64,000 bases of DNA from Gemmatimonadales bacterium (GTDB taxonomy: Bacteria > Gemmatimonadota > Glassbacteria > GWA2-58-10): the NCBI GenBank assembly GCA_024278175.1, contig JAJRTS010000002.1, positions 62,001-126,000 of the forward strand. The letters are read 5' to 3'. The position numbers were made by a program, and so were the translations under genes. The notes beneath the pieces are model-generated. The model did not search any database and was not told the DNA's origin. It was given only the letters and a program-made list of their open reading frames with translations. Positions 8,417 to 10,807 of the stretch are shown here, piece by piece (position 1 is the stretch's first letter; each line of letters begins with the position of its first letter).

Positions 8417-9817
8417 TCAGCGTTCCAGTTCGGGGATTTTAATATCGTAGCGACTGCCCTGCACCAACACCTGGCGCGCATCGCTGATCGGCCAGGGCCA
8501 GGGGCAGGGCGGCGGATAGTTAAGGTCGATCTCGGCAAGCGCCACGCCGGGGCGTTCTTTGGCCTCGCCCAGCACGGTACCCCACGGGTCGTAGATCCTG
8601 CTCTCCACGTCGTAGCCGCAACTGAGCAGATAGGCGTGGTTCTCGATCGCCCGTGACGCGATCTGCGTGCTGTTGCCGCCCCAGATCGGCAGGAAAATAA
8701 TCTCAGCGCCGGCGGCCGCCAGAGCCCGGGCCGGGTCGACAAACCAGCTGTCCCAGCAGATCATGATCCCGATCTTGCCGAAATCGGTCTCGAACACCGG
8801 GTAGCTGTCGCCGGAGGTTACTCCCTGGTCGTACTCGCCCTCGGGAAGATGGGTCTTGCGGTACTTACCCTTGATCTCTCCGTCGCGGCCGATCAGCACG
8901 GCGGTGTTGTAGATCACGTGTCCCTCGCGCTCGCCCAGGGCGGCGACAATGTACATTTCGTGTTTCCTGGCGACCTCGGCCAGCGCATCGGTGGTGGAAC
9001 CGGGGATCGGTTCGGCCACATCATAATACTTGCTGGGGCTGCCATCGGACCGGTTCACACCGATCAGGTTCACGCCCTCGCCGAGGCAGACTATGTCCGC
9101 GCCCTGCTCACCGGCCCTGTCGGCCACCGCGCAGAACTCGGCGACCGTTTCGGCCACCGACGGGTTGCCGCCGGGACGGCAGTTGACAGTGGCCACTTTC
9201 ACCTTGCGGCCTGGCGGAGCGGGAATCTGAATCAGGCTGATCAGGTCCCACCAGGCGCGTCCCTGGGGGACCTGGCTGAGGAACAACTCGATCAGCGCGC
9301 TTTTTGCATTCGGCGGGGCCTGGCGGATCATTTCCACGGTGCGCCACCGGTCGGCGGTGATTCCCTTTTGGGCGGCGTATTCGCGTGTGTTGCCGATCCT
9401 GTTGCCCGCGCTGTCTTGCCACTCCAGCCTGGCGAACACCGTGTTGTGGGTCTGCGGAACTCCCTGCACGGTGAACGCGGCGCCGAACCGGTAGAAAGCT
9501 CCGCCCTCGATTCCCTCCACTTTCTTGCGCCAGCAGCCTCTGGCCGCGTTGTTGGAGGCCCCGTAGAGGTACAGGCTGCCTTCGCCGGAGAGGCTCTTAT
9601 TCGGGTCCACGCTGAAATCAGGGCTGATTTCCGGGCGCTGGCTGTGCATTTCCCAGCCGGGAGAGTCAACTGAAAACGAATCCTGATCCAGCAGGGCTTT
9701 ACCCTGGTGCGCAAGCACCGGGCGGGCAAGAGCCAGCAGGATCGCCAGCATGACCAGTGTGCCAATCCGGACCGCCAGGGCGGTCCGGGAAGGTTCGGAT
9801 TGAACAAAGCTGCTCAT
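8417..9817 (-). CDS. Exported carbon-nitrogen hydrolase with N-terminal jelly-roll-like domain
   Basis: A 466-residue nitrilase-superfamily enzyme that hydrolyses C-N bonds of amides or carbamoyl groups. The catalytic triad is visible: Glu247 (CLGEGVNL), Lys321 (KYRKTHLPEGE) and Cys354 (MICWDSW). Residues about 15-36 are a signal peptide or anchor (VMLAILLALARPVLA). Between them, residues about 45-195 form an extra beta-rich domain (GEGSLYLYG, RLEWQDSAGNRIG, WWDLISL) that resembles galactose-binding or CBM4/9-type modules, suggesting attachment to a glycan or cell wall. Such a fusion is not usual for the family. The ATG has GAAGGAGCAGCCG upstream. A second exported nitrilase homologue lies at 14527. 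Confidence 0.85.
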   Translation of the reverse strand: MSSFVQSEPSRTALAVRIGTLVMLAILLALARPVLAHQGKALLDQDSFSVDSPGWEMHSQRPEISPDFSVDPNKSLSGEGSLYLYGASNNAARGCWRKKVEGIEGGAFYRFGAAFTVQGVPQTHNTVFARLEWQDSAGNRIGNTREYAAQKGITADRWRTVEMIRQAPPNAKSALIELFLSQVPQGRAWWDLISLIQIPAPPGRKVKVATVNCRPGGNPSVAETVAEFCAVADRAGEQGADIVCLGEGVNLIGVNRSDGSPSKYYDVAEPIPGSTTDALAEVARKHEMYIVAALGEREGHVIYNTAVLIGRDGEIKGKYRKTHLPEGEYDQGVTSGDSYPVFETDFGKIGIMICWDSWFVDPARALAAAGAEIIFLPIWGGNSTQIASRAIENHAYLLSCGYDVESRIYDPWGTVLGEAKERPGVALAEIDLNYPPPCPWPWPISDARQVLVQGSRYDIKIPELER

Positions 9818-9979
9818 CGGCTGCTCCTTCTTGGGAAAGGAAAAGAAATCCGCATCGGCACGGCCTGCCGGACCGATGTGAAAATAATGAAACCAATACG
9901 CCCTCCGCCGGCGTCATAACAGGCAGAGACAACTGATGTTAACCGGCCTTTGGAAAAACGCGGATGCAAGGGAGGCGCT

Positions 9980-10075
9980 ATGAACAAGCGCGAGTATTCC
10001 TCAGTGATCTGGCACGCGACTGTTATGATAACCATCTATTTCGGGTTGGTCTATCTTCCAGTCGGGATGGCTTGA
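9980..10075 (+). CDS. 31-residue single-pass membrane protein
   Basis: A short gene too small for normal gene callers. The ATG at 9980 is preceded by GGGAGGCGCT, a near-ideal ribosome site. The 31 codons give a short charged head (MNKREYSS) followed by one hydrophobic stretch (VIWHATVMITIYFGLVYLPV), then TGA. A strong rho-independent terminator with six T starts 20 nt after the stop on the same strand. No other plus-strand gene lies between 8302 and 11279, so the terminator needs this gene to explain it. No family was recognised; size and layout resemble small inner-membrane accessory subunits. It could instead be the mRNA-like part of a small RNA. Confidence 0.6.
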   Translation: MNKREYSSVIWHATVMITIYFGLVYLPVGMA

Positions 10076-10094
10076 ACAACAGGCTTCGCACGGA

Positions 10095-10131
10095 GGCCGC
10101 ACTCCCGGATAAGGGAGCAGCGGCCTTTTTT
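10095..10131 (+). terminator. Intrinsic terminator for the 31-codon gene
   Basis: Outer stem GGCCGC / GCGGCC, inner stem CTCCC / GGGAG, short loop, then TTTTTT. The T-tract is on the plus strand only, although the next annotated gene (ending 10133) is on the minus strand. Confidence 0.85.
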
Positions 10132-10132
10132 G

Positions 10133-10807
10133 TCAGTTGTTGTTCAGAACCTTGATTCTGATATTGCGAAAATCCACACCTGTCTGATGGTTCTGCAGGC
10201 CGATATGTCCGCTGCGTGGCCGCCCGGAGAGCGGGGTCAGGCCCTCCCGGCCCACGGTATGCTCGTCCATGTTGGTCCGGACCACTTCCGTACCGTTAAG
10301 CTCGATCACCACCAGCGGCCCGTCGCAGGTGATCCGGTAGCTGTTCCACTGCCCGGGAGGATTGGCCACGCCCTGTTTGGCCGTCGCCTGCAGATAGATG
10401 CTGCCGGTGTGCTGGGCGGGCTTGATATCGCGGTGCCCGGCGGCATCGTCGTCCAGTATCTGGATTTCCATCCCGGCCCGGGAAACGTGGGACCCGGCGG
10501 GAAATCTCAGCCCAACCCCGCTGTTGCCTCCAGGCGGGATTTTCCAGTCCAGTTCCAGGATGTAATCGGAGTAGGTTTTTTTAGTGGTCAGCCAACCGCC
10601 GCCGCCGGCCACGCAACGCAGGATCCCGTCCCCGGCTTTCCACGTGGCGATATCTCCGCCGTCGGCATACCAGCCCTCCAGCGTCCGGCCATCGAACAGC
10701 GCCACGAACCCGTCGTCCCGCGCCGAGCAGCCGGCCACGGATATAGCGGCGATGGATACCAGCAGACAGAATGCAAAAAAAGCAAAAAATGCGAAAGCGG
10801 ATTTCAT
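10133..10807 (-). CDS. DUF1080 (3-keto-disaccharide hydrolase-like) lipoprotein
   Basis: A 224-residue protein with one DUF1080 jelly-roll domain, the fold of 3-keto-disaccharide hydrolases and LamG-like glycan binders. A lipobox SVAGC at residues 23-27 makes it a lipoprotein. Typical blocks are FVALFDGRTLEGW, the Gly/Trp-rich GDGILRCVAGGGGWL, WKIPPGGNSGVGLRF, QHTGSIY and HIGLQNHQTGVDFRNIRI. The ATG at 10807 is preferred because GGAG precedes it by 5 nt and the signal peptide begins there; the open frame runs 102 nt further without other support. It is monocistronic on this strand and probably acts on oxidised disaccharides, possibly with the Gfo/Idh/MocA oxidoreductase at 18027, which is inference. 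Confidence 0.88.
   Translation of the reverse strand: MKSAFAFFAFFAFCLLVSIAAISVAGCSARDDGFVALFDGRTLEGWYADGGDIATWKAGDGILRCVAGGGGWLTTKKTYSDYILELDWKIPPGGNSGVGLRFPAGSHVSRAGMEIQILDDDAAGHRDIKPAQHTGSIYLQATAKQGVANPPGQWNSYRITCDGPLVVIELNGTEVVRTNMDEHTVGREGLTPLSGRPRSGHIGLQNHQTGVDFRNIRIKVLNNN

Follow-up and report, generated by a model that had tools for sequence, protein, structure and literature searches.

The small gene at positions 9980-10075 (plus strand) of the window, that is, of the whole 64,000-nucleotide stretch of Gemmatimonadales bacterium DNA analysed here, is, as judged from sequence comparison, almost certainly a real gene that forms a unit of its own and belongs to a family confined to one lineage, whose members are single-helix membrane proteins of 29-45 residues marked by Tyr-Phe within the helix. 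We found 23 related genes, which were present in all six genomes of the taxonomic family f1: two in the source genome G000, four in the same-genus genome G001, seven in G002, three in G003, six in G004, and one in G005. The best reading of the whole, towards which we lean, is an ECF envelope-stress regulon that makes one-helix accessory peptides, perhaps AcrZ-like modulators. The features of the locus in the window are as follows.

8417-9817, minus strand: carbon-nitrogen hydrolase (PF00795) gene, divergent neighbour (Pfam; also adjoins in G001 and G002)
9888-9894, plus strand: -35-like element TGAAACC, with an A-rich stretch 5' of it (pattern match)
9912-9918, plus strand: -10-like element CGTCATA, separated by 17 nt from the -35-like element and lying 61 nt before the ATG (pattern match)
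9970-9975, plus strand: Shine-Dalgarno sequence GGGAGG (sequence; kept as GGGAGGG in G001)
9980-10075, plus strand: 31-codon gene for a one-helix membrane protein (sequence, comparison, AlphaFold)
10092-10131, plus strand: intrinsic terminator, a GC hairpin followed by T6 (sequence and folding; equivalent hairpin and T run in G001)
10133-10807, minus strand: 3-keto-disaccharide hydrolase (PF06439, DUF1080) gene, convergent neighbour (Pfam)

The window gene runs from the ATG at 9980 to the TGA at 10073-10075 and encodes MNKREYSSVIWHATVMITIYFGLVYLPVGMA, in which Tyr20-Phe21 is the family signature. A preliminary description of this DNA had proposed that a gene for a small membrane protein stands here, complete with ribosome site and terminator, a claim that is now backed by comparative evidence. 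Its 31-codon frame with one membrane span could be read in the sequence, and AlphaFold predicted a single helix over residues 3-30 (mean pLDDT 88.7). The GGGAGG that it placed at ideal spacing is present, but the 4 nt (cgct) between GGGAGG and the ATG are slightly short and not ideal. Behind the stop there is indeed a GC hairpin, with the stem core GGCCGC (10095-10100) and GCGGCC (10120-10125), followed by T6 at 10126-10131, and the 60 nt 3' of the stop fold far more stably than shuffled sequences (-26.4 kcal/mol, z -3.85, 0/200 shuffles equal it). A simple terminator scan of the window did not list this hairpin, presumably because of an internal bulge in the stem. Both larger neighbours, the CN-hydrolase and 3-keto-disaccharide hydrolase genes, lie on the minus strand as described.

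Among 61 genomes (the source genome and 60 relatives), the sole close match outside G000 was in G001, with 68% identity over all 31 residues. Alignment showed that the G001 ortholog keeps the start, ribosome site, stop, hairpin, T run and both flanking genes, and the upstream non-coding part is far less alike between the two genomes than the gene. Stops and frameshifts were sought in relatives, and the frame proved intact in the one same-genus genome; moreover, two other genera have a member of the family at the equivalent position, adjoining the 3-keto-disaccharide hydrolase gene. Between the G000 and G001 genes, 11 codons differ with a change of amino acid and 7 differ silently. Synonymous bias, a check that had been suggested earlier, was positive for the window-gene pair (pN 0.175, pS 0.512) but weak for a second ortholog pair (pN 0.252, pS 0.209) and moderately positive overall (both pairs combined, P = 0.041 against the same changes scattered at random); by itself, this pattern of changes supports coding only moderately. 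With an intact same-place ortholog in a second species and with paralogs and orthologs detectable by profile, the signals are beyond chance, as had been supposed. A chance open reading frame, in favour of which stands the shortness of 31 codons, is contradicted by the conserved frame, promoter, position and family, and its probability is close to nil.

The preliminary description also stated that the family was unknown, which is true for public libraries; nevertheless, the gene has relatives, at least 23 members in total, and most of these carry a common promoter. Pfam, NCBIfam and PADLOC gave no family for the nine of the 23 members that were scanned at E up to 10, and a PDB profile search gave one match (E 0.32), which was irrelevant. 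Each member is an SD-led single gene with one membrane helix, and a hairpin closely follows the stop in most members (no hairpin with a T run was evident behind the stop of G002:C229:33187 and G003:C308:16090). Tyr is invariant, and the Tyr-Phe pair is found in 22/23 members, with Tyr-Ile in one promoter-driven member, although this count is partly circular, as a profile built with Tyr-Phe favours Tyr-Phe proteins. The pair is likewise found in 8/9 small proteins downstream of promoter matches, three known ones excluded (shuffle P 8e-8), and this promoter-only count is not circular.

A two-row profile, applied to 395 genomes of the phylum, gave many weak matches, mostly inside long frames, together with a paralog in the source genome at G000:C65, MSAREYYQLIGQVAGSVMIYFALVGLMLA, which has its own GGAGG. 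A three-row protein profile detected G001:C37 at E 1.7e-5 and, weakly, G002:C111 at E 0.19, and the promoter stands before both genes. With a 15-row profile, genes outside its rows were found at E 4.5e-5, 2.5e-4, 3.4e-4 and 0.006, all in f1, and one more at E 0.19; three of the four at E 4.5e-5 to 0.006 have a weaker promoter form that the relaxed pattern (see below) did not list. The final profile search added two genes of G003. Over the 395 genomes, the 15-row profile reached E < 0.01 in the six f1 genomes only, and the search of the 389 genomes of the phylum outside f1 gave nothing convincing: matches at E up to 0.1 occurred in 11/389 genomes, with E-values calculated per genome. The weak matches inside long frames of other genomes were dropped, since 11/389 is no more than the chance expectation.

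The contig scan with the two-row alignment gave a single locus, L036 (Terriglobia), whose matched stretch continues into the apparent beginning of a TetR-like gene; we took it to be chance. G196 (L008/L038, E 3.8e-4 with the two-row profile) has a longer frame with two hydrophobic stretches, ends in IYFGLVYLLA and is not a member; it was left out of the family because the later profile did not list it at E up to 0.1. This small protein, from another family of the phylum (L008:1380-1700, G196:C39), closely resembles the window protein at its end, FIGIYFGLVYLLA, apart from its second hydrophobic stretch. In G144 (L125) a similar helix, VYFGFLAMVAWAP, matched weakly (E 0.027 among 395 genomes, which is chance level); unlike the Tyr-Phe family, this frame is longer and has a second hydrophobic stretch, and it may be DUF485, the small subunit of acetate-type symporters.

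Across genera, the flanking genes of several members are retained. No theme unites these flanking genes, and every small gene forms a unit by itself. Group A lies beside a 3-keto-disaccharide hydrolase gene in G000, G001, G002 (C111) and G004 (C191), with the CN-hydrolase gene also present in G000, G001 and G002; the 3-keto-disaccharide hydrolase neighbour was recognized by Pfam in G001 and G004 and by an antisense frame only in G002, and identities to the window protein in this group are 68, 30 and 28%. Group B is near IlvD in G001 and G002 and near a rhomboid-like gene (by eye) in G000 and G001; group C is near an HD-domain gene in G001 (two genes) and G002; group D is near NikR in G002 and G003 and near radical SAM/BatA genes in G003 and G004; and group E is beside a laccase-domain gene in G002 and G005. 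Within groups the proteins are widely diverged and the Tyr-Phe pair stays. In G004, four different Tyr-Phe small genes stand in a row within about 1.2 kb (L096:6438-7655, G004:C143), with the promoter at the first two and not at the last two. At L094:3-878 and 990-1685 (G002:C229), adjoining frames begin near-identically (LSRRARLTPQGLRAKLGRSSGSRRPACN...), indicating a recent duplication or repeat.

The window gene is very probably read from a putative ECF-sigma-type promoter at 9888-9918 (G000:C107:71888-71918), a claim that rests on motif conservation and enrichment; the site scores 12/14 and had gone unseen in the preliminary description. The first clue came from a comparison of three upstream regions, which gave TGAAACC, 16-17 nt, and TGTC(A/T)TA-like boxes. 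The ECF promoter consensus has AAC in the -35 element and GTC in the -10 element, and the sites found here share these features of the class, with near-fixed spacing and occurrence before several transcription units. A strict pattern matched three times in the six genomes and only within genus g1, the relaxed pattern TGAAACN{15,19}GTCWTA found 27 sites in the six f1 genomes vs 10 for the reversed control, and a one-mismatch fixed-gap pattern found 29 sites vs 3 for its control. Among the 27 relaxed-pattern sites, 12 are followed by an SD-led frame of 29-45 codons encoding a strong membrane helix, seven lie before genes for TolC-type (four sites, of which one belongs to an OprM-like gene of a MacAB-like operon), HlyD-type and DUF4097 proteins or before an unassigned gene that looks envelope-related, and eight have nothing evident downstream. 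Small frames of this kind lie 40-100 nt downstream of 0.23% of positions in 527 kb of strand sequence around the sites, family members included, and because this background was taken around promoter sites, the chance rate is overstated; against it, 12/27 has P ~4e-25.

The extended form AAANN-TGAAACC-N16-TGTCWTA occurs seven times in 395 genomes, always within f1; six occurrences lie before small genes of the family and the seventh before the DUF4097 gene. Scored from the side of the family, TGAAACC-N16/17-TGTC(A/T)TA reached at least 11/14 in 17/23 members vs 38/5000 random stretches, and at least 13/14 in 10/23 members vs 0/5000; the gap is 16 in 15 of the promoter-bearing members and 17 in two. 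No convincing promoter was seen at the other 6/23 members, five in NikR/BatA/radical SAM neighbourhoods and one at G002:C35, and the sequences suggest that the NikR/BatA/radical SAM branch may be under different control. The promoterless members of these neighbourhoods are at L094:2182-2667 (G002:C229), L168:5585-5701 (G003:C308) and L096:7295-7655 (G004:C143).

From the promoter at 9888-9918, an mRNA of roughly 200 nt would be made, ending at the hairpin. Its own promoter, short length and strong terminator give the unit an sRNA-like layout, and the E. coli sigma-E regulon includes sRNAs; the short stress-driven transcript might work as a regulatory RNA, with the peptide secondary. We consider this very unlikely, as protein-level similarity and the Tyr-Phe pair are kept between genera, the frames viewed begin behind a ribosome site, and the Rfam search of the region gave nothing near the gathering score (two weak matches, E 0.36 and 0.95). 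A type I toxin with an antisense RNA antitoxin would agree with the small, hydrophobic product and with a sigma-70-like site found antisense in the frame (10053-10025, minus strand; 1 found vs 0.2 expected). However, this site is not kept in the sequence of the G001 ortholog, PADLOC gave no match, and a shared stress-type promoter and dispersed conserved positions are atypical of such toxins, for which we see hardly any likelihood.

The other promoter targets were, by Pfam, OEP (five proteins), HlyD-type (three) and DUF4097 (one) proteins. The OEP/TolC targets are in G000, G001, G002 and G004, plus one in the MacAB-like operon of G004, the HlyD-type targets are in G001, G002 and G004, and the DUF4097 target is in G005; MacB-like permease or ATPase frames stand beside the HlyD genes (by eye). 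In the neighbourhoods viewed, no small gene was seen beside an efflux gene, and the efflux link is therefore through the shared promoter only. MacB-like efflux operons also stand behind TGAAAAC/TGAAACT variants of the promoter at L171:2752-8204 (G001:C17) and L172:1669-8001 (G002:C167), and the last gene of the G001:C17 operon is DUF4097-looking.

The gene of an ECF sigma factor is commonly driven by the promoter class that the factor itself recognizes. In four genomes, 58 Sigma70_r2 matches were found, and upstream scans of 30 of these 58 sigma loci gave no clear promoter match at any. Outside these 30 lies L088:5314-6588 (G000:C23), where an ECF sigma factor, a zf-HC2 anti-sigma factor and an LTXXQ-like gene stand behind a TGTAACC-N16-TGTCTTA variant; this sigma/zf-HC2 operon is a possible source of the regulon. 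In another reading, with MgrB-like logic, the peptide would damp or tune the sigma response by binding to a sensor kinase, to the anti-sigma factor or to the protease that acts on this factor. The promoter common to the presumed sigma regulon and the position of the G000:C65 member near a sensor histidine kinase gene would fit such a feedback regulator, but a sensor kinase is not a neighbour common to the other groups, and it is not obvious why a single regulator should exist as several diverged copies in each genome; we regard it as improbable.

Because the same promoter class precedes TolC-type, HlyD/MacAB-type and DUF4097 genes, we presume that the small proteins are made, probably, as part of an envelope-stress response. 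In the mechanism that we propose, the helix would insert in the inner membrane, and its Tyr-Phe face would pack on a larger membrane protein and modulate that protein as AcrZ does AcrB. A transporter of the co-regulated efflux systems would be the target to consider first, and different paralogs within one genome may act on different partners; we put this forward tentatively. The main competing explanation of the peptide itself is a membrane-active stress peptide (YohP/TisB-like), whose helix would lower the membrane potential or reshape the lipid phase and leave the cell protected and slowed, with no partner. The size, the single helix and the stress-type promoter fit, many diverged paralogs of loose sequence suit lipid-level action, and E. 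coli YohP (27 residues) is reported to collapse the membrane potential and to make cells more resistant to stress (PMC12719787). Against this, the ends are short and nearly neutral and the protein is not a cationic amphipathic helix, and the invariant Tyr, with Phe beside it in 22/23, suggests a specific contact; we rate the membrane-active peptide as unlikely.

Returning to peptides that pack on protein partners, we would further speculate, with little confidence, that many targets of an ECF sigma factor are units of one gene, scattered through the genome and numbering up to about seven in each, whose diverged one-helix Tyr-Phe peptides act as dedicated membrane adaptors, every one tuning a different envelope complex under stress. 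If true, this would be a regulatory layer of paralogous micro-proteins, as sigma-E of E. coli uses small RNAs, and if the adaptor role holds, an ECF envelope-stress response would act through an entire array of micro-proteins. Discoveries of small membrane proteins have mostly come singly and from model organisms; here a family is definable in uncultured bacteria by three signals (promoter, position and Tyr-Phe helix), a definition that makes its regulation and partners testable. Searches that begin with the promoter can, moreover, reach proteins too short for ordinary annotation.

The literature that we searched, which was incomplete, held no report of such a family; searches for small membrane proteins or MacAB/TolC in connection with ECF sigma factors also found none, and those on TGAAACC with ECF found nothing relevant. 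Stress-induced small membrane proteins are already known, and what is new is the promoter-linked, dispersed paralog family with the Tyr-Phe signature. The regulons of sigma-W of Bacillus and sigma-E of E. coli are alike in having an AAC-type -35 and a GTC-type -10 element before envelope and efflux genes and differ in that, here, a substantial fraction of the targets found are tiny one-helix proteins, each encoded by a unit of one gene. YohP of E. coli and similar stress-induced proteins (PMC12719787) resemble the family by description, in size, in the one helix and in the link to stress, but their regulation differs from that of the Tyr-Phe family. AcrZ attaches to AcrB in its membrane region, and resistance to certain AcrB substrates changes as a result of AcrZ action (PMC7267776). 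Like AcrZ, the family consists of single-helix small membrane proteins and is, in the reading proposed here, controlled together with efflux genes; unlike AcrZ, which is one gene and to which the Pfam and NCBIfam scans of nine members showed no sequence relation, it is a dispersed family of Tyr-Phe paralogs under an ECF-type promoter.
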